Shown here piece after piece: positions 5,421-62,736 of a stretch of 64,000 nucleotides of DNA. The notes under the pieces were generated by a model. That model saw only the letters and a program-made list of their open reading frames with translations, did no database searches and was not told where the DNA came from. Position 1 is the first letter of the stretch. Every line of letters begins with the position of its first letter. Made by a program: the position numbers and the translations under genes. The DNA is from Pantoea sp. RIT-PI-b. Its GTDB lineage: Bacteria; Pseudomonadota; Gammaproteobacteria; Enterobacterales; Enterobacteriaceae. The stretch is taken from the NCBI RefSeq assembly GCF_001187905.1, contig NZ_LGIS01000017.1, forward strand, positions 186,001 to 250,000. The letters run 5' to 3'.

Positions 5421-5450
5421 AAATAAAAAAGCCTCCACGAGGGAGGCTTT
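5421..5450 (-). terminator. Attenuator terminator of the pheST operon
   Basis: Stem GCCTCC/GGAGGC (5431-5436 with 5442-5447) followed on the minus strand by a run of six T and an AT-rich tail. It lies between the pheM leader peptide and pheS. In E. coli, ribosome stalling at the Phe codons of pheM when Phe-tRNA is scarce prevents this hairpin; the same layout is visible here. Confidence 0.88.
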
Positions 5451-5497
5451 CAGCGCGATTTTTCGTTTCTTTTCTTATGCGCAAAAGCCCCTGATGT

Positions 5498-5542
5498 TCA
5501 GGCGCTAAAGTAAAAAAAGAAACGGAAAATAGCAGCATTCAT
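5498..5542 (-). CDS. pheM: pheST leader peptide
   Basis: A 14-codon reading frame, [14 protein letters not shown] then TGA, matching the E. coli leader [14 protein letters not shown] except for the last residue. Five of its 14 codons are Phe, four of them (three consecutive) in FRFFFYF, so its translation senses charged tRNA-Phe. It is followed 47 bases later by the attenuator hairpin at 5421-5450. Far below any usual size cut-off, but the sequence match and position make it secure. Confidence 0.95.
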   Translation of the reverse strand: [14 protein letters not shown]

Positions 5543-5629
5543 GCTTGCGTTACCTTGTCATGTTAGAAACCGCACTATTGAAATGCGCAGCGGCCAAAAT
5601 GTCAATCTTTTGCGTGAGTTGCGGGTAAT

Positions 5630-30346: not shown

Positions 30347-31837
30347 TTACGGCGCCATCAAATTGAAACGCTCGTCATCACCCTGATCCAGCGAGAACGG
30401 CGGTTGCAGCTGCAGAACAATCTCATTCGAAGTCACATGATTCTGCTTACTGTCCTCTAATTGCACCGACAAGCGATAACTGTTGCGAGCACCGGGGGAA
30501 CTGTCCCAGGCCGGCAAGATAACACTCCAGCCTTGTGGATCGTTCGGGTTGGCACCTGGCGTCAGGCTCAGCGCCTGGGTATCACCCTGCCACATCACTT
30601 TGGCGATCGGATTAGTACTGCGAATCTGCAGTTTCAGCGGCAAGCTTTCCCCACCCTTCAACTGCCACGGCGGCGTAGCGAGGAATACCGACAGCGTCTT
30701 ACGCTGGCGGAATTCCAGCACCGGCGTATTGGTGCGCGTCACGTTATCGTAGCGACTGCCGCGCAGCGAGTGCGCCGCCGCCACGTTGTCCGGACTTAAC
30801 TGCTGGCTGAGCGCTACGCCGAAGCGATAGTTGAGGCGCAGACCCAGCTGATCCTGGCTCTCTCCGCTATCGCTGGTTTTATGACTGGCCGACAGCGTCA
30901 CCAGCGGCACTGGCGTATAGGTCACGCCGAAGGTCAGCGCCGACGGATTGTGGTAGCGATTGCCGGAGCTAAACAGATCAACGTTATCGCCGAGATATTG
31001 CTGCCAGCTTACCGAAGCGCCCAGTTGACGATACTGCGGCAGATAGCCTTGCGTAGTGAAATCGTAGCCGCGCGCCAGGCGTTGCTGCTGGAACGGATCG
31101 CGATCCTGCCAGCCAGATAACGGCGTGTAATAATTGGCGGAAAAACGCAGGTAATCGCCCCAGGCTTCGGTACCGAGCGAAGCGCGTTGCTGTCCGCTAC
31201 TGAACATACGATCAACAAAGCCGTTATAGCCCAGCAGCCATTTACCCGTCACCCAGCGCTGACCAAGGCCAAAATTGCCCACCAGCCCATCATCGGTTTG
31301 ATGAAATCCCACCTGACTAAAGGTCAGATAGCGGTAGTTATCCGCCCACGGCGTCAACAGCGAGGCACCGCTGCCGTTAAAGTTACCGTCGATATCCACG
31401 TTGAAGTCGATCTGTGCGTTGCCGTACGGCGAAAGCAGCGACTGTCCTTCATTAACCAGCCGATTTCCCACTTCATCGCGGAAATGATTGAAGGCCCAAA
31501 GACCCGCCTGCTGACCTAACGAATTTTCGTCGGTGCTATTCTGACTGGCTTCACCGATGCTTTTCGCAATGGTCGCCAGCTTTTTGTTAAACGTCTCGGT
31601 CTCGTCCTGATAACCCAATGCCGGTAACTGATCGGCCATTTTCTGGAAACGTGCGGGATCGCTAAACGGCGCATCGGAGAGTTTAGTATCAGAGATCAAC
31701 GCCAGCGCTGGCGCAGCGACGGCGAGTGCGGAAATACCGGAGACATACCGCAAGGATTTAGGTGAAAACAAAGTAGGCAACATAGCAAAAAAGGGATCAA
31801 CCCGACTCAGAATTAGAGGTAGCTCACAAAACTGCAT
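30347..31837 (-). CDS. ychO: YchO-like inverse autotransporter (invasin/intimin beta-domain protein)
   Basis: 496-residue outer-membrane protein resembling E. coli YchO over most of its length. It lacks the long passenger of true invasins. Signal region about 1-47 (GISALAVAAPALA); inverse-autotransporter barrel about 130-350 with NAQIDFNVDIDGNFNGSGAS, FGLGQRWVTGKWLLGYNGFVDRMF, LGTEAWGDYLRFSANYYTPLSGW and SLRGSRYDNVTRTN; then one Ig-like extracellular domain, FRQRKTLSVFLATPPWQLKGGE. ATG 31837 has a weak SD AGGG; ATG 31783 is an alternative giving a shorter signal peptide. Function in adhesion or motility is unproven. Confidence 0.85.
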   Translation of the reverse strand: MQFCELPLILSRVDPFFAMLPTLFSPKSLRYVSGISALAVAAPALALISDTKLSDAPFSDPARFQKMADQLPALGYQDETETFNKKLATIAKSIGEASQNSTDENSLGQQAGLWAFNHFRDEVGNRLVNEGQSLLSPYGNAQIDFNVDIDGNFNGSGASLLTPWADNYRYLTFSQVGFHQTDDGLVGNFGLGQRWVTGKWLLGYNGFVDRMFSSGQQRASLGTEAWGDYLRFSANYYTPLSGWQDRDPFQQQRLARGYDFTTQGYLPQYRQLGASVSWQQYLGDNVDLFSSGNRYHNPSALTFGVTYTPVPLVTLSASHKTSDSGESQDQLGLRLNYRFGVALSQQLSPDNVAAAHSLRGSRYDNVTRTNTPVLEFRQRKTLSVFLATPPWQLKGGESLPLKLQIRSTNPIAKVMWQGDTQALSLTPGANPNDPQGWSVILPAWDSSPGARNSYRLSVQLEDSKQNHVTSNEIVLQLQPPFSLDQGDDERFNLMAP

Positions 31838-31953: not shown

Positions 31954-32751
31954 TCAGGAAAAGATCAACCCGCCGTCCACGTTAATGGTCTGCCCGGTGA
32001 TGTATCGCGCATCATCCGAGGCGAGAAACGCCACTAAACCGGCAACATCTTCCGGCTGACCCGCGCGCTTCAGCGGGATATTCTCCACCCACTCCGCCAT
32101 CAACTCGCCTTTGCCATACTGCTTTTTATCGCTACTGAGAATCTCACCCCATACGCGATCGTTATAGTCCCACATTTCACTCTCTATAATGCCGGGACAG
32201 AAGGCATTCACCGTGATGTGCCACGGCGCCAACTCCAGCGCCAGGCTCTGCGTGATACCAATCACCCCCATCTTGCTGGCGGCGTAGTGAGGCGTATAGA
32301 TAAAGCCCTGACGTCCCTGACCCGAAGAGGTGTTAATCAGGCTGCCGCTGCCCTGCTTCACCATATATTTTGCCGCTTCGCGACAGCACAGCCAGACGCC
32401 GGTGGTATTCACCGCCAGGATCTTATCGAAATCGCTTTTCGGCATCGAATCAAAGCGATCGATGGTGATCACGCCTGCATTTTGAATCGACACATCAATG
32501 CTGCCAAAGCGCTCCGCAGCCTGCTGATAGAGCTGCTGTACCTCAGTCTCATTGGTGACATCCACCTGCAGCGCCAGAATCTCACTGCCAAACTGCTGTT
32601 CGATGGCCTGCGCGGTAGTAAAGACGCGTTCAGCATTTGACACCATCACCAACCTCGCACCGTCGCGGGCGAAGCGAGCCGCAATGCCCGCCCCAATGCC
32701 GCGGCATGCTCCGGTAATCACCACCGTCTTACCACTAAAATCGCGTGTCAT
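31954..32751 (-). CDS. Short-chain dehydrogenase of the polyol/sugar ABC unit
   Basis: Classical SDR of 265 residues, NAD(P)-dependent: cofactor loop [10 protein letters not shown] near residue 14, NAG at 90-93 ([11 protein letters not shown]), catalytic Ser in [17 protein letters not shown] (Tyr-Lys) and C-terminal [15 protein letters not shown]. It is the last gene of the ABC-transporter operon, 11 bases after the permease. Likely oxidises the imported compound, perhaps a polyol or sugar; the substrate is unknown. The tail after the catalytic motif ([27 protein letters not shown]) is typical of sorbitol/galactitol-type SDRs, which is weak evidence. Confidence 0.85.
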
Positions 32752-32762
32752 ATTGCCTCCTG

Positions 32763-33830
32763 TTATCCATGTGTCGCTTCAGGCAGGGCGGCCGATTGCT
32801 GCTTTTTTTCATGTCTGCGCAGCAGCACCACCTTACTTTGTAATTTTTGCTGGAACTGGTCGATCACCACCGCAGTAACTATCACCAGGCCTTTAATCAC
32901 CATCTGCCAGAAATCACTGACGCCCATCATCACCATGCCATCGGCGAGGAACACGATGACGAAAGCGCCGATAATAGAGCCGGACACCCGACCACGGCCG
33001 CCCGCCAGCGCCGTGCCGCCTAATACCGTGGCACCGATAGCGTCCATCTCGAACATGTTGCCGGTCATCGGGTGGGCGGTTTGCAGCTGCGACGCCACGA
33101 TCAAGCCAACCAGCGCGGCACACAAGCCGGAAAAGGCATAGACAAACACTTTAACTTTGATGATTGGCACGCCGGCCAGCCGCGCCGCCGATTCGTTTCC
33201 GCCGGTGGCGTAGATATAACGGCCGAGCGGCGTTTTACGCGTCAGGTATAAGCCCAGCAGCAGAAAACCCAGCATCAGCCAAATCGGGATATACACGCCC
33301 AACACCGAACCCGAACCAAGCAAGGCAAAGCCGGTATTGCCCAACGCCGGGGTGCCGACGAGGTTGGCGTAAGTGCTGCCGTCGTTGAACAGCAGCGCCG
33401 CACCGCGCGCGATGTACATCATGCCGAGCGTACAGATAAAGGGCGCCACGCCAAGTCGTGTCACCACCGCACCATTAATCAGTCCCAGCGCAACGCCGAA
33501 CAGCGCCACCACCAGAATCACTTCGGGCACATTAAAAAACAGCACATTGCCGCCCCATAGCGGTACGCCATTGGTGAGCAGTGCACCCGCCACCATGCCG
33601 CAAATACCCGCTACCGCGCCCACCGAAAGATCAATGCCGCCGGTAAGAATCACCAGCGTCATACCAATCGCCAGCAACCCGGTGATCGCCACATGCTGCG
33701 TCATGATCAGCAGGTTTGAGGTCGTGAGAAAGTTAGGCACCATCAAGCTGAAGAAGCTCACCACGATTAATAACGCAATAAAGGTGCGCGCCTTCAACAG
33801 GTACATGTAGATCAGGTATTTTTGATTCAT
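32763..33830 (-). CDS. RbsC-type sugar ABC transporter permease
   Basis: Inner-membrane permease of 355 residues in the branched-chain/ribose BPD_transp_2 family, with eight to ten helices. Family motifs: [33 protein letters not shown] and [41 protein letters not shown], where the EAA-like GG-R segment contacts the ATPase. The C-terminus is extended by a basic stretch ([18 protein letters not shown]). Lies 20 bases after the ATPase gene and is co-transcribed. The substrate cannot be read from the permease. Confidence 0.93.
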
Positions 33831-33850
33831 CGTTTCACTCTCCTGCGGGC

Positions 33851-35383
33851 TCAGTCATGTGGCGTTGAGGCGCTAATCAAGGCTTCACGCGTGGCCGCCG
33901 CGCGCGGTAAATCAGCGGTAATGCGGCCATCGGCCATCACCAGAATGCGGTCCGCCAGCGCCATCACTTCATCCAGTTCCGAAGATGAGAACATCACGGC
34001 CAGCCCCTGCTGTGCCAGATGACCAATCAGGTGATAGACATCCGTTTTTGCCCCAACGTCGATGCCGCGCGTAGGCTCATCGAGCAGCACCACTTGTGGA
34101 CCGGTCATCAGCGCTTTTCCCAATACCACTTTTTGCTGATTACCGCCGCTGAGTGACGTGATCGGCAGCTCCGGATCGCTGACTTTGATCGCCAGATGAC
34201 CAATCATTTCATCCACGCGACGCTGCTCTTTATGCGGATTGAGCCTCTGCCACGCGCGGCGGAATCCGCGCAGGCTGAGATCGCTGAGCGTCATGTTGGC
34301 GGTGATCGACATCAGCTGCACCACGCCTTCGGTTTGGCGATCTTCCGGCACCAGCGCAATCCCTTTTTTCAATCGCTGTTGAAAGCTACGCTTCTCCAGC
34401 GCTTCCCCGTTGAGGCTGACGCTGCCCGATTGACAGTGCATCATGCCAATCAGCCCTTTAAACAACTCGGTGCGCCCGGCGCCCAGCAAACCGTAGATGC
34501 CAATCACCTCACCTTTGCGCAGGGAAAATGAGACATCATTAAGCTTGTAGCCACCGTTTTGATGCAGCGCGGTCAGCCCATTTACCTTGAGGACGGTGGC
34601 ACCCTGCGCCGCCGGTTGGTAGTCGAAATGCTTTTTCTTATCGCCCACCATCTGCTCGATGATCCAGGGAATTGAAGCATCACGCACCTCACGCTCGCTG
34701 ATAAAGCGTCCGTCGCGGAAGATGGTGATGTGATCGCCAATCTCCATCAGCTCTTCCAGCCGATGCGAGATATAGATGATGGTGACGCCGCGCCGCTTGA
34801 GCTGCTCAATCACGTTAAACAGCACTTTCACCTCAGACTGGCTGAGTGCGCTGGTCGGTTCATCCATAATCAGGACGCGCGTGTCTTTGGACAGCGCCCG
34901 CGCGATCTCCACCAGCTGCTGATGGCCGATACCCAGCTCAGCCAGTGGCGCATAGGGATCGACATCCAGCTCCAGCCGCTGCAGCAGCGCTTTGGCCAGC
35001 TCATACTGGTACTTTTCATTGATGACGCCACGCTGGAAAAACTCATTGGCCATGAAAATGTTGTCCATCACATTCATATTGGGAAACAGGTTTAGCTCCT
35101 GAAAGATAATGCTGATGCCCTGTTTCTCTGCCTGATGCGTGGAGTTGAGCGATACCACCTCGCCATCCAGCAGAATGTCGCCGGAGGACGGGATCTCTAC
35201 GCCCGCCAGCATTTTCATCATGGTGGATTTACCCGCACCGTTTTCGCCAATCAGCACGTTGACTTTGTTGCGATAGACGCGGTAATTGACCTGGTCCAGC
35301 GCGGTGACGCCGGGATAGAGTCGCGACACATTACGCGTCTCGATAATCACATCCAGCGGCCCGTCGGGCGGAATTTGCGACAT
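33851..35383 (-). CDS. RbsA-type sugar ABC transporter ATP-binding protein
   Basis: 510 residues with two fused nucleotide-binding domains. N-terminal domain: Walker A GENGAGKST, degenerate signature LGIGHQQLVEIARAL, Walker B VLIMDEPTSAL, switch His in ISHRLEE. C-terminal domain: Walker A replaced by GLLGAGRTE without Lys, true signature LSGGNQQKV, Walker B VVLLDEPTRGID. This asymmetry, one hydrolytic site partly lost, is normal for RbsA, MglA and XylG. It starts at ATG 35383, nine bases after the DUF2291 gene. Confidence 0.95.
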   Translation of the reverse strand: MSQIPPDGPLDVIIETRNVSRLYPGVTALDQVNYRVYRNKVNVLIGENGAGKSTMMKMLAGVEIPSSGDILLDGEVVSLNSTHQAEKQGISIIFQELNLFPNMNVMDNIFMANEFFQRGVINEKYQYELAKALLQRLELDVDPYAPLAELGIGHQQLVEIARALSKDTRVLIMDEPTSALSQSEVKVLFNVIEQLKRRGVTIIYISHRLEELMEIGDHITIFRDGRFISEREVRDASIPWIIEQMVGDKKKHFDYQPAAQGATVLKVNGLTALHQNGGYKLNDVSFSLRKGEVIGIYGLLGAGRTELFKGLIGMMHCQSGSVSLNGEALEKRSFQQRLKKGIALVPEDRQTEGVVQLMSITANMTLSDLSLRGFRRAWQRLNPHKEQRRVDEMIGHLAIKVSDPELPITSLSGGNQQKVVLGKALMTGPQVVLLDEPTRGIDVGAKTDVYHLIGHLAQQGLAVMFSSSELDEVMALADRILVMADGRITADLPRAAATREALISASTPHD

Positions 35384-35392
35384 AGCCCCTCC

Positions 35393-36004
35393 TTATTGCC
35401 GGGTGATTTGCGCCGGTGTAATGTCAGGCGCCTGCTGTGGAATATCCCAGCTGCTGAACACTCCGACGATCGCCACTTTGTCGCCCACTTTCGGCTTAAA
35501 CGTTTGCATCATGTCGGATGCCTGCTGATTGATAGCGCGATTGAAATCGCCAAACAGCACCTGATCGTTGAAATCCTGATAGCTGGCGCCTTTATAAACG
35601 TCACGCAGCGCGGTGCCGCGAATAATCGGCCCGGTTTGCACCGTGACGCTGGCACCTGAGACCTCTTTCACCGTCATTTTGCCGCTGCGCGAGGTGGTAT
35701 TCAGCGCCGTCACTTCTCCGCTCAGGCTGACGCTAAATACACAGGGATTCTCATCCTGGCTGCGATAGCCGTAGCTTTTACAGGCACTGTCGAAATCTTT
35801 GGCCGACTGCAGCGACTTCATCAGTTCTGCCAGCGGCCTGGCTTCATGAGCGACCTGCGGCACCAGCTTCTGCTGCCACATCTGCGCGATGTTGGCCATG
35901 TTGGCATTAGGGGGATTTTTCAGGTCGGCCAGCTCCTGCTGCGACACAATGCGGCAACCGCTAAGGATCACGACGGGTAGCAGTAACCAGAGTCGTCTGT
36001 GCAT
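35393..36004 (-). CDS. DUF2291 family lipoprotein
   Basis: 203-residue predicted lipoprotein: MHRRLWLLLPVVILSGC has the lipobox LSGC at about 14-17, then RIVSQQELADLKN. The body matches the DUF2291 family, often found inside ribose-type ABC operons; its job is unknown. ATG 36004 is preferred over GTG 36007 because SD GGAG then has a six-base gap. Two cysteines (CKSYGYRSQDENPC) may form a disulfide. It sits between the binding protein and the ATPase, in the same transcript, so it may help the periplasmic part of this importer. Confidence 0.8.
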   Translation of the reverse strand: MHRRLWLLLPVVILSGCRIVSQQELADLKNPPNANMANIAQMWQQKLVPQVAHEARPLAELMKSLQSAKDFDSACKSYGYRSQDENPCVFSVSLSGEVTALNTTSRSGKMTVKEVSGASVTVQTGPIIRGTALRDVYKGASYQDFNDQVLFGDFNRAINQQASDMMQTFKPKVGDKVAIVGVFSSWDIPQQAPDITPAQITRQ

Positions 36005-36046
36005 CACATTCTCCTGAGCGCCCGATGAACGGGCGCACCGCGTTGA

Positions 36047-36982
36047 TTACGACTTGAAGTTAAAGTCCTGCACGCCTTTCGCGTTATCTGGGGTGATGAG
36101 AATGCCGCGGAACATCACGCGCTGCTTCTCAGGTTTAGTGCCTTTCTGAATAAAGTTGTCGAGGTCGGTTACGCCCTGTGCGGCAATAGCTTGCGCCTGC
36201 AACATCACCGTGGCTTTCAGATCGCCTTTCTCGACCGCATCGCGCTCATCATTACTGCCGTCAATACCGACCACGATGACATCGTTACGACCCGCCGCTT
36301 TCAGCGCGGCAATTGCCCCCAGCGCTACCGGGCCGTTGCCGCAGATCACCCCTTTCACATCCGGATGCGCCTGCAGGATGCTGTCCATGATGCGCTTGCC
36401 ATCAATCAGCGTGCCTTTGGCATCCTGACGCGCGACGCTTTTCATGTCGGAGTATTGATCGAGCACCTGGTGGAAAGATTTGGAACGCGTGACGCAGTTG
36501 TTATCGGCGAGATTACAGGTGAGTTCGGCGTAGCTGCCCTTTTCGCCCATCTTCTCAACAAACACGTTGGCCACATCGGAACCGGCCTGGAAGTTGTTGT
36601 GGGTGATTTGCGCCAGCGCCACGTCATCCACCGGGATCTCGCGGTTGATCAGTACCACCGGAATGCCGGCATCTTTGGCTTTTTTGATGGCCGCCACGCT
36701 GGCGGTGGAGTCCGCGTTATCCAGCACGATGCCCTGTACTTTCTTGCCAATCGCGGCATCAATCAGTTCACTTTGCTTCTTCACATCTTCGCCATGCGAC
36801 AGCACGCTGGTTTTGTAGCCGAGTTCCTGCGCTTTGAGGTTGGCGCCTTTGGCTTCGGAGGCGTAATACGGGTTATCCAGTGAGTTCACCAGAATCATGA
36901 TGGTGCCTTTTTCGGCAGCCAAACTGGCGTGCGCGATCAGACAACTGGCAATAGCAGTCAACAGCAGGATGGGTTTTTTCAT
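36047..36982 (-). CDS. Periplasmic sugar-binding protein of ribose-type ABC importer
   Basis: Type I periplasmic binding protein of 311 residues. Signal peptide MKKPILLLTAIASCLIAHASLA. Two-lobe family blocks: MILVNSLDNPYYASEAKGANLKAQELG, VQGIVLDNADSTASVAAIKKAKDAGIPVVLINREIP and CGNGPVALGAIAALKAAGRNDVIVVGIDGSNDERDAVEKG. It resembles RbsB and related binders. Hinge/ligand residues differ enough that ribose cannot be assumed. A cysteine pair, TCNLADNNC, lies in the middle. First structural gene after the SDR at 37039. Confidence 0.92.
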   Translation of the reverse strand: MKKPILLLTAIASCLIAHASLAAEKGTIMILVNSLDNPYYASEAKGANLKAQELGYKTSVLSHGEDVKKQSELIDAAIGKKVQGIVLDNADSTASVAAIKKAKDAGIPVVLINREIPVDDVALAQITHNNFQAGSDVANVFVEKMGEKGSYAELTCNLADNNCVTRSKSFHQVLDQYSDMKSVARQDAKGTLIDGKRIMDSILQAHPDVKGVICGNGPVALGAIAALKAAGRNDVIVVGIDGSNDERDAVEKGDLKATVMLQAQAIAAQGVTDLDNFIQKGTKPEKQRVMFRGILITPDNAKGVQDFNFKS

Positions 36983-37038
36983 GGTGATTTTCTCTTTGTT
37001 GTAGGTGCAGGGTCAGCCGTTCTGGTGTTGGCGTGGCC

Positions 37039-37836
37039 TTACCAGATGGTAAAGCCACCGTCGATCATCAAATCTGCGCCGGTGATCATGTCGCTGCCGT
37101 TACTGGCGAAGAACAGCACCGCGGCGGCGATTTCGTCGGTATAGGCAAAGCGCCCGAGTGGGATCAGTTTTTTCATCGCTTCACCCTTCTCTCCGCGCCA
37201 GGCTTTTTCCCCCATCGGCGTCAGCACTACGGTGGGCGACAGGGTATTTACGTTGATGCGATGCGGCGCAAACTCTTTGGCCATCACCTTGGTCATGCCC
37301 AGCAGACCCGCTTTGGCCGAGGTGTAAGCCACGTGGTTATCGATGGCGATAGAGGCGGCCTGCGAGGCGATATTGATAATTTTGCCGCCGTTACCGGCAC
37401 GCACCATGCGTTTACCGGCAGCCTGCGAGCAGAGAAAGGGGCCGGTAAGATTCACGGCGATCTGTTTCTGCCACTCGGCGAAATCGGTCTCCAGTACCGC
37501 TTGTAACATCACGTAGCCGGCGCAGTTCACCAGGATATCAATCTGGCCATAATGCTGTTCGACCTGATTGAAGGCAGCATCCACCGAGCCGGGATCGGTG
37601 ACATCGCAGCACACCAGCAGCACGCGATCGGCGGCAAACTGCGTCTGCACATCAGCCACTTTGTCACGTTCGAATGGAGGATAGAGCAGCGCCAGCCGCG
37701 CCCCTTTCTCCAGCAGCATGGCGTTACTGGCCATGGCAATACCGCCCAGCCCGCCGGTCACCACCGCCACTTTGCCGCTTAAGTCCTGCTCAATGTTCAC
37801 GCCGTAGCGCAGGTTGACGTCATATTCCCCACTCAT
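37039..37836 (-). CDS. Short-chain dehydrogenase with atypical cofactor loop
   Basis: 265-residue SDR and first gene of the operon, with SD AAGGAG and a start at ATG 37836. The cofactor loop is TGGLGGIAMAS: the third glycine of TGxxxGxG is Ala, unlike the other SDR here. NCAGYVM (variant NNAG), catalytic Ser in INIASQAAS, YTSAK and the C-terminal MITGADLMIDGGFTIW keep the family outline. A 20-residue N-terminal extension precedes the Rossmann fold. Likely oxidises the imported sugar or polyol together with the SDR at 31954; substrate unknown. Confidence 0.85.
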   Translation of the reverse strand: MSGEYDVNLRYGVNIEQDLSGKVAVVTGGLGGIAMASNAMLLEKGARLALLYPPFERDKVADVQTQFAADRVLLVCCDVTDPGSVDAAFNQVEQHYGQIDILVNCAGYVMLQAVLETDFAEWQKQIAVNLTGPFLCSQAAGKRMVRAGNGGKIINIASQAASIAIDNHVAYTSAKAGLLGMTKVMAKEFAPHRINVNTLSPTVVLTPMGEKAWRGEKGEAMKKLIPLGRFAYTDEIAAAVLFFASNGSDMITGADLMIDGGFTIW

Positions 37837-38215
37837 CCACTTACTCCTTTCATCATTACGCTGCGGCGATGATTATCGCTGGCCGGGTTATCGTTTTTGG
37901 CAACATTGGTTTTCGAACAAAAATATAAGCTATCGATTAATAATGGTTTGTGGGGCAGATCAAATTTCATACAAATCGCAGCAATAAAATACATCACTAT
38001 GATTTAATTGATAATGCTTACATTTCATATTTCCAGGCATGGAGAGAGCTGCTAGGGGCTTTGTGCAAAATCAATCGCATAGCAAACATTCATTTTCGTT
38101 CGAAAACGAATGAGCTTGCGAGCTGCCTCGCAAATACCAAAAACGCAGAGTAAAATCAGCTCGGGTTTCCTTATTGGCGAGACCAGACCGTGATTGGAAA
38201 GAGGGAGCGTTTCGA
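37837..38215. other. Divergent promoter region of the ABC/SDR operon and DeoR gene
   Basis: 379 bases between two divergently read genes. It holds the candidate operator at 38087-38112 and a half-like site TTTTCGAACAAAA at 37910-37922. AT-rich blocks between 37940 and 38060 could hold both promoters. No gene seen. Confidence 0.7.
38087..38112. promoter_or_regulatory. Candidate DeoR-family operator
   Basis: Inverted repeat whose arms ATTCATTTTCG and CGAAAACGAAT match at ten of eleven positions around a two-base centre. TTCG/CGAA arms are typical of DeoR-family sites such as those of GlpR. It lies about 105 bases before the DeoR-family start and about 250 bases before the SDR start, suiting control of both. 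Confidence 0.55.
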
Positions 38216-39037
38216 TTGAAAAGCAAAACTGAGCAGCTGGCTGATATGCAGCTTCGCCGTGAGAAGATTCTGGAGATGATCCGCGAAGACGGCACCGTCA
38301 CGGTAAAAGCGTTAACCGATACCTTTGGCCTGACCGAAGCCACCATCCGCACCGACCTGCGCATGTTGCAGCAAGAGGGTCATGTGCAGCGTTATCACGG
38401 CGGCGCCACGCTGATGACCGGTAAGCAAAATAGCGGTGCAATGCTGCTGGAGCGCCAGACGCATCTCGACGAAAAACAGGCGATTGGACGCCTTGCCGCG
38501 CAGCATGTGGAGAATGGCGATACGGTGATTTTCGATTCCGGCACTACTACCACGGCAATCGCCGAGGCGATTAGTCATATTCGGCGTCTGTCAGTGATTA
38601 CCACTGCCGTTAATATTGCGCTAAAGCTGGGCGGCGAACCGGGGATTAATATTTTGCTGACCGGCGGCACCTTCAAGTTCCCGACGCTATCGACCTCGGG
38701 TGAGAAAGCGGCCTCTTTTTTCGAAAACGTATTGGCGGAGAAGCTGTTTCTCGCCACCGCCTGTATTTCGCCGCGTTTGGGGCTGAGCTTTCCCAGCGAG
38801 ACCGATATCAAAGTGAAGATGGCGATGATCAAATCGGCCAGCACCGTTTACGTGGTAGCGGATTCCAGCAAGATTGATAAGGTGTCGATGTTCGCCCTGC
38901 CGTGCGACTGGAGCCATATTCACTATCTGATTACCGATAGCGGGATTTCACCGGCGCAGGTCGCGGCGTTTGAGGCGTTGGGGGTGCAGGTGTTGGTGGC
39001 GGGAGTGGAAGGGTTAAAAAAACGTGCGGCATCCTGA
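38216..39037 (+). CDS. DeoR-family transcriptional regulator
   Basis: 273-residue repressor-type regulator. N-terminal winged helix about 12-65 with RREKILEMIREDGTVTVKALTDTFGLTEATIRTDLRMLQQEGHVQRYHGGA; C-terminal DeoRC sugar-phosphate-sensing domain with DSGTTTTAIAEAI (phosphate-binding) and VVADSSKIDKVSMFAL. TTG 38216 is favoured because SD GAGGGAG lies eight bases before it; an earlier TTG at 38174 has none. The adjacent divergent ABC/SDR operon is the likely target and its phosphorylated substrate the likely inducer, by family analogy. Confidence 0.88.
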   Translation: MKSKTEQLADMQLRREKILEMIREDGTVTVKALTDTFGLTEATIRTDLRMLQQEGHVQRYHGGATLMTGKQNSGAMLLERQTHLDEKQAIGRLAAQHVENGDTVIFDSGTTTTAIAEAISHIRRLSVITTAVNIALKLGGEPGINILLTGGTFKFPTLSTSGEKAASFFENVLAEKLFLATACISPRLGLSFPSETDIKVKMAMIKSASTVYVVADSSKIDKVSMFALPCDWSHIHYLITDSGISPAQVAAFEALGVQVLVAGVEGLKKRAAS

Positions 39038-62572: not shown

Positions 62573-62736
62573 ACGGCTGGCGCTAAATATCGCCGACTCA
62601 CCTTCACCTTTATCAATACCTATCGACACTTTTTCGCTTCGCTTATTTACAGCGGATAAAGCCGACCGCACGAAAAACATATCGTCAGATTATTCGCCAT
62701 GTCACACTGTATATACATACAAGTATCGGAGGTGAC

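Follow-up and report, generated by a model that had tools for sequence, protein, structure and literature searches.

The branched sugar apiose occurs in the pectin of plant cell walls and in plant glycosides. In D-apiose pathway I, reportedly described by Carter et al. in 2018, an ApsI isomerase, an AplK kinase and an AptAB transketolase are said to act in turn. Royer et al. (PMC13001218), reporting on E. coli STc131/STc14, describe a cluster for D-apiose that has aplK, aptA and aptB but no apsI, and hypothesize that two oxidoreductases replace it; of the strains tested, the three E. coli and the one E. fergusonii with the cluster grew on D-apiose and K-12 did not. A Rhodobacteraceae strain with a Gfo/Idh-ApnL-OiaX-type enzyme set also grows on D-apiose (PMC11747546). 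Here we describe a six-gene operon and its facing regulator gene in a stretch of 64,000 nucleotides of Pantoea sp. RIT-PI-b (contig NZ_LGIS01000017.1, positions 186,001 to 250,000; the window), which probably serves for uptake and redox conversion in the D-apiose branch of catabolism.

A Pantoea operon related to D-apiose clusters

Based on the list of open reading frames (ORFs) and Pfam, the minus-strand operon encodes, in this order, a short-chain dehydrogenase/reductase (SDR1), a substrate-binding protein (SBP), a DUF2291 lipoprotein, an ATPase, a permease and a second short-chain dehydrogenase/reductase (SDR2), opposite a plus-strand DeoR-type gene (Table 1). Intergenic gaps within the operon are 9 to 56 bases. 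A preliminary description of this DNA had listed the seven ORFs; their positions were confirmed, as were all of their families by Pfam. Its statement that the operon itself holds no kinase, isomerase or aldolase is likewise borne out by the gene content. Calling the unit uncharacterized was too strong, as a close E. coli relative was reported in 2026 to go along with D-apiose growth (PMC13001218).

This relative can be recognized in E. coli K56-43-un (locus L082), where genes in the same order lie between entD and hokE and encode proteins with 84% (SBP), 61% (DUF2291), 85% (ATPase), 87% (permease) and 82% (SDR2) identity to those of the window. By location and gene content, we matched it to the D-apiose cluster of PMC13001218. 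Like the window operon, it contains two oxidoreductases and lacks an isomerase. The E. coli cluster has a SorC regulator, in-cluster kinase and transketolase genes and a second SDR of the PRK06114 type, whereas the window operon has a DeoR regulator and an SDR1 of the GolD/DthD family and holds neither kinase nor transketolase; its genome has an isomerase candidate at another site.

With D-apiose pathway I, this genome shares the downstream enzyme types, encoded in a second operon on contig C12, and a paralogous SBP-DUF2291-ATPase-permease cassette. The window operon differs in carrying two SDRs rather than an isomerase, a changed SBP pocket and other operator-like sites; of the marks of D-apiose degradation I, neither AplK plus AptAB in the same cluster nor an isomerase in the cluster was found in it. 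Paralogous cassettes also occur in the alphaproteobacterial D-apiose/apionate clusters of Ensifer and Salipiger (SBPs 50 and 44% identical), where they are followed by a Gfo/Idh enzyme and OiaX is annotated in both; the Ensifer cassette adjoins the D-apionate lactonase ApnL (816 bits, cut-off 750). Those clusters oxidize apiose towards apionate, whereas the route proposed here would lead to apulose.

Association with an FGGY kinase and a split transketolase

Related operons were collected in two ways. The surroundings of DUF2291 genes in 33 of 34 positive genomes (G028 left out; 40 stretches) were mapped with ORF calls and BLASTP, and an SDR2 alignment (A1) was used to search named records, of which the best 80 of 523 relatives were classified. 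All operon and site counts below are counts of loci, some present twice, and not of independent species. Three layouts were distinguished. Type W, to which the window belongs, combines DeoR, a GolD/DthD-family SDR1 and SDR2. Eight family loci of this type (L021, L023, L024, L029, L030, L034, L041, L047) also contain a split transketolase and an FGGY kinase, as does the Caballeronia operon (L080). The window and three further type W loci (L026, L028, L043) have neither in the operon, and all four genomes hold both elsewhere (L019, L027, L098, L084); in our strain, the two homologues stand together in the C12 operon. Type K, seen in Klebsiella and E. coli (L078, L079, L082), joins a SorC regulator, SDR2 and a PRK06114-type SDR, kinase and transketolase to the same transporter. 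In type 2, which lacks SDRs, a paralogous transporter is combined with transketolase, kinase and, in most cases, an isomerase. The FGGY kinase scores as GlpK-like, below cut-offs. In one Klebsiella aerogenes record (NCTC10006, L079), the kinase, DUF2291, ATPase and SDR2 are annotated as fragments, through either decay or sequencing error.

Among the best 80 named SDR2 loci, 28 combine SDR1, transporter and DUF2291 without transketolase or kinase; 19 of these are named Pantoea, and all except L131 have the DeoR gene (27/28). Transketolase and kinase are added to the operon in 16 loci (Erwinia, Dickeya, Serratia, Rouxiella, Brenneria and others; one named Pantoea). Another 20 pair a PRK06114-type SDR with DUF2291, transketolase and kinase, 12 have the PRK06114-type SDR, transketolase and kinase with another CUT2 transporter and no recognized DUF2291 (all Pseudomonas, within L167-L184), and four show remaining layouts, some interrupted by contig ends. 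The closest of these 80 are from Pantoea endophytica (98%) and Pantoea sp. SOD02 (97%). The recurrence of the gene set in 28/80 and 16/80 loci indicates that the neighborhood is not due to chance. Because the layouts vary in this way, the enzyme core is read as SDR2, a second SDR, the kinase and the split transketolase, with transporter and regulator as exchangeable parts; SDR2 is common to the SDR-type operons compared.

The same linkage was visible across whole genomes. In 149 genomes of the family, the split transketolase C subunit was counted at E <=1e-70, a cut-off chosen after seeing the list, which gave 34 positive genomes; two with transketolase-like proteins of 41 and 35% identity (G108, G137) were excluded before counting. 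SDR2 was present in 23 of these 34 and in 1 of the 115 others (Fisher 1e-17). Fifteen of the 34 had SDR2 only, eight (our strain among them) SDR2 and an isomerase, 11 an isomerase only, and none had neither (Fisher p 5e-4). In the genus (61 genomes), SDR2 was found in 48 and the split transketolase in 53, with an overlap of 48; five of the 13 genomes without SDR2 had the transketolase. The 53 transketolase-positive genus genomes comprised nine with SDR2 only, 39 with both, five with an isomerase only and none with neither. Isomerases occurred in 44/61 genus genomes, and the two kinds were never found together in one genome. Two isomerase-only genomes, G176 and G191, have disrupted copies only; the SDR2 of G096 contains an internal stop, and in G174 SDR2 and transketolase are adjacent.

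These results change how the unit is understood. The preliminary description was right to see a sugar or polyol importer with two SDRs, one of which falls in the GolD/DthD family, beside a DeoR regulator. Its kinase-free pathway did not hold, given the FGGY kinase and split transketolase in orthologous operons and the C12 operon of the same genome. It had named a kinase elsewhere in the regulon as grounds for abandoning that pathway; this is largely what comparative genomics, rather than regulon data, now indicates, with the qualification that the C12 operator is not shared.

Comparison of type K with isomerase-type clusters gave 70-71% identity for the kinase and 72-76% for the transketolase C subunit (TktC); therefore the two routes should lead to a common ketose. 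The isomerases themselves are of two unrelated kinds. A xylose-isomerase-like gene beside the type 2 kinase of G064 matched 3ktc at E 3e-199; we take 3ktc to be of Pectobacterium origin and its relative to be ApsI. The xylose-isomerase-like gene on contig C23 of our strain is a candidate apiose isomerase by similarity. No Fuc-isomerase-like gene was found in this genome. In G146 (L192, 6838-11434), such a gene has an MFS sugar transporter and a protein with an apiosidase domain (PF13204) as neighbors; its best curated match is weak (sulfoquinovose isomerase, 111 bits, cut-off 700), and it may serve as an apiose-branch isomerase.

A predicted redox route to D-apulose

In the explanation that we favor, the CUT2 importer, with the DUF2291 OB-fold lipoprotein as an anchored accessory, would take up D-apiose or its alditol D-apiitol. 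The SDR pair would interconvert D-apiose and D-apiitol and oxidize D-apiitol to the ketose D-apulose, so that two redox steps would reach the same product as the isomerase. D-apulose would then be phosphorylated by the FGGY (AplK-type) kinase and the phosphorylated product cleaved by the split (AptAB-type) transketolase, both presumably supplied from the C12 operon in this strain and from the same operon in other genera. The substrate, the two SDR reactions and their order, the specificities of kinase and transketolase and the role of DUF2291 are predictions, in keeping with the observed gene content, conservation, genome-wide linkage and distinct operator-like sites. The gene feature is real, and it represents a variation on a pathway described not long ago, not a new kind of pathway.

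The two SDRs belong to different families. SDR1 scored 303.7 bits against NF005309 (GolD/DthD; cut-off 286) and is a member, whereas SDR2 scored 183.3 bits and is not; among the matches listed, SDR2 cleared only the cut-off of the broad PRK07231 subfamily (217.5 vs 215). The catalytic Ser-Tyr-Lys residues were conserved in all sequences compared, 57/57 for SDR1, 105/105 for SDR2 (those with >55% identity) and 48/48 for the PRK06114-type SDR. All 105 SDR2 sequences carry a basic residue in the glycine motif, which is the mark of NADP-type enzymes, and in the PRK06114-type SDR strand 2 ends in Asp in 48/48 (NAD-type). SDR1 has an unusual cofactor region, in which Tyr-Pro after strand 2 replaces the usual Asp or basic residue (Tyr in 57/57). 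Its glycine motif reads GGIA, where the usual form is GGIG.

These motifs fit one reductase and one dehydrogenase. SDR2, judged by its NADP-type motif, is likely the reductase, and SDR1, or the PRK06114-type SDR in Klebsiella and E. coli, is likely the apiitol dehydrogenase; the GolD/DthD family takes its name from polyol dehydrogenases. Aerobacter aerogenes has an NAD-dependent D-apiose reductase (EC 1.1.1.114), which supports an apiose-apiitol step and whose use of NAD does not match the SDR2 motif. A dthD gene is up-regulated in Serratia marcescens color mutants, a result that PMC8764370 gives without further context.

If this explanation is true, there are at least three interchangeable ways in which bacteria convert apiose to apulose, namely two unrelated isomerases and one redox pair. 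The pair would correspond in bacteria to the route by xylose reductase and xylitol dehydrogenase in fungi, and the two putative oxidoreductases of the E. coli apiose cluster already published would be placed in a wider family with a predicted division of labor.

Binding-protein pocket and operator-like sites

The window encodes a complete CUT2 importer, the genes for a Peripla_BP_4 SBP, a BPD_transp_2 permease and an ATPase with two ABC domains standing side by side. None of its proteins passed the NCBIfam ribose equivalogs (RbsB 142.7 bits, cut-off 337; RbsA 504, cut-off 745; ribose permease 271.4, cut-off 398), and the ATPase is XylG/AraG/RbsA-like below curated cut-offs. For the binding pocket, SBPs were aligned to E. 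coli RbsB (L198) and read at positions 13, 15, 16, 89, 90, 141, 164, 190, 215 and 235, which we take to be its ribose contacts. The window SBP reads NYYNRRGNDL, as do 88/88 other SBPs more than 55% identical to it (73 distinct sequences), and differs from E. coli RbsB (NFFDRRFNDQ) at five of the ten positions. Type 2 and alphaproteobacterial/rhizobial-type SBPs read NFFDRRWNDQ (17/17) and erythritol-locus SBPs NYWNARWNDQ (4/4), so that Asn at the RbsB-89 position is common to the window SBP and the erythritol-locus class. One Pseudomonas SBP (L168) has the ribose-like F/F/D/R/W/Q pattern, yet Ala at 13 and 190. Hence, the window transporter appears to represent a distinct conserved class, and loss of the stacking aromatic residue at 164 together with Asn at 89 would suit an open-chain ligand. 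The C12 SBP shares 43% identity with the window SBP; against the R. etli protein 5ibq the former scored 453 bits and the latter 279 bits. We assume the ligand of 5ibq to be alpha-D-apiose, an assumption that structure listings do not confirm, as the one entry in them is 4ry0, under the name of a ribose transporter protein.

The intergenic region between operon and regulator gene contains the only two exact TTTTCGAACNAAA sites in the 64 kb (0.28 expected at <=1 mismatch). Across 54 DeoR intergenic regions, the window included, TTTTCGAACNAAA was exact in 29, had one mismatch in 24 and two in one, while the best match in mononucleotide shuffles mostly had three to four mismatches. A different element, TGAATATATATTCA, occurred exactly in 45 of the 69 SorC-bearing loci, in most cases in the interval that separates SorC from the gene for the transketolase or the SBP; the remaining 24 include Pseudomonas loci and partial stretches. 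It was found exactly in 0/53 loci with a DeoR and no SorC gene, and in 6/27 loci with neither, including the isomerases of our C23 and of G105. An operator common to the window operon and C12 was sought and not found. The genome thus seems to hold two regulons, which should converge on one ketose; what remains surprising is that a second importer, differently regulated and differently shaped, would feed the same branch.

Alternative explanations

Several observations weigh against an apiose-branch role. SDR families are broad, and a substrate is not readable from the family. The pocket of the window SBP differs from the apiose-associated pocket, and D-apiose growth of E. coli in PMC13001218 is a correlation of presence with growth. 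Exact TGAATATATATTCA sites stand at C12 and 29 bp before the start of the C23 isomerase, which are on different contigs, and the only match in the window (at 62708) has three mismatches, a chance-level result. The C23 isomerase gene (L188, 8060-9094) is 85% identical to one inside a type 2 operon, and 39/48 genus genomes with SDR2 have an isomerase; therefore the SDRs are not needed here merely as isomerase replacement, and the idea that they stand in for a missing isomerase in this genome was dropped on finding the close C23 copy. The trade-off between SDR and isomerase was not significant among transketolase-positive genus genomes (p 0.57; two of the five isomerase-only genomes have disrupted copies), one SDR2-bearing family genome (G130) lacks a transketolase match, its cluster having lost the first half (L193), and the Fisher tests and counts treat genomes without phylogeny. 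The transketolase of a window-type operon (L024) shares no more than 42-45% identity with the isomerase and Klebsiella types, and therefore the common-ketose argument does not reach window-type operons.

Some of these points would fit a narrower form, counted within the favored explanation and less likely than not, in which the operon is a dedicated system for the acyclic polyol D-apiitol and apiose is left to the SorC-type set. The transporter would bind apiitol, SDR1 would oxidize it to apulose and SDR2 would be a side or scavenging reductase, while D-apiose would enter by the C12 transporter, kinase and transketolase and the C23 isomerase. An importer with a remodeled pocket and its SDR pair would thus feed apulose to the kinase and transketolase of the D-apiose set, two regulons converging. 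The separate regulator and operator-like sites, the presence of both systems in one genome, the pocket (NYYNRRGNDL vs NFFDRRWNDQ, with Asn at 89 as in the erythritol-locus SBP) and the polyol-dehydrogenase name of the SDR1 family favor it. However, one SDR would be enough for apiitol, the Pseudomonas locus L168 keeps the SDR pair with a ribose-like pocket, and D-apiose supports growth of E. coli that carries this transporter type and SDR2 (PMC13001218). Another branched or linear polyol, such as a methyl-branched tetritol or a pentitol, on whose ketose the kinase and transketolase of the relatives would act, is an unlikely substrate: the divergent TktC of window-type operons and the differing pocket would allow it, but the E. 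coli/Klebsiella type couples the same transporter and SDR2 to a TktC close to the isomerase type and accompanies growth on apiose (PMC13001218). The earlier model of a self-contained oxidation unit passing its oxidized product straight to central metabolism agrees with the kinase being missing from the window operon and from 28 of the best 80 named SDR2 loci; we hold it to be very improbable, because a split transketolase was found somewhere in 48/48 SDR2-bearing genus genomes and kinase and transketolase stand in the operon in other genera. Least credible of all is an ordinary ribose or xylose importer. The curated families that come nearest are RbsB, RbsC and XylG, but all scores fall far under the equivalog cut-offs, half of the presumed ribose contacts differ from E. 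coli RbsB, and no ribokinase or xylose genes were seen in the operons compared.

The DUF2291 lipoprotein

DUF2291 (PF10054) was detected in the window at 157.1 bits (gathering cut-off 22.5). A PDB sequence search with DUF2291 alone gave no credible match, and a profile search gave 2f4i at E 0.04. This structure, TM0957 of Thermotoga maritima, aligns over nearly the full length of DUF2291 and has the same OB fold at 15% identity; the fold assignment draws on this match and not on lower-ranked OB folds, and we take the TM0957 gene to lie in a ribose operon. In the family survey, the DUF2291-positive genomes (34/149) are the same set as the 34 with the split transketolase, and the nearest named proteins are in Enterobacter- and Pantoea-named records. 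The literature searched yielded no paper with the word DUF2291. Its proposed role as a transporter companion, with a lipobox, is supported, and it may act as an anchored accessory. DUF2291 thereby gains a fold, a tight tie to the apiose-branch transketolase in the family studied and a second tie, to an erythritol-type importer.

The latter is seen on contig C30 of the same genome (L018, 3672-13533), in what we take, from Pfam domains, gene order and partly by assumption, to be an EryA/B/C/D-like erythritol-type locus with its own DUF2291 and CUT2 importer. DUF2291 adjoins the importer there as in the window operon, whereas the Ery-like enzymes have no counterpart in the latter. DUF2291 of the erythritol loci (L018, L020, L022, L025) has a transmembrane-like N-terminus and no lipobox Cys.

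Feature coordinates and neighboring elements

The start of the regulator is probably TTG 38216, and the listed TTG 38174 14 codons too early, because the block conserved in 31-34 of 54 regions takes in TTG 38216. The shared intergenic region would therefore be about 380 bases long.

Table 1. Positions of the operon genes, the regulator gene and the putative operators in the window.
Feature	Position	Strand	Evidence
SDR2, FabG/glucose-ribitol-dehydrogenase-like; proposed D-apiose/apiitol oxidoreductase	31954-32751	-	Pfam
CUT2 permease, BPD_transp_2	32763-33830	-	PF02653
Sugar ABC importer ATPase, two ABC domains	33851-35383	-	PF00005, two stretches
DUF2291 lipoprotein, lipobox LSGC, OB fold	35393-36007	-	Pfam and structural match
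SBP, ribose-type (CUT2), Peripla_BP_4; first transporter gene	36047-36982	-	Pfam
SDR1, GolD/DthD-family dehydrogenase; proposed polyol (apiitol) dehydrogenase	37039-37836	-	NCBIfam NF005309 and conserved Ser-Tyr-Lys
Putative DeoR operator 1, TTTTCGAACNAAA, exact	37910-37922	+	Site search and conservation
Putative DeoR operator 2, exact TTTTCGAACNAAA at 38094-38106	38087-38112	-	Inside 11-pair inverted repeat
DeoR-family regulator	38216-39037 (ORF listed from TTG 38174)	+	PF08220, PF00455

Promoter-like matches (3 found, 4.4 expected) and terminator-like matches (11 found, 7.6 expected) in the sequence were at chance level. Elsewhere in the window, a Phe leader RNA lies at 5422-5547, and the ORF at 30347-31837 appears, as judged by eye, to encode an intimin/invasin-type (inverse autotransporter) beta domain.

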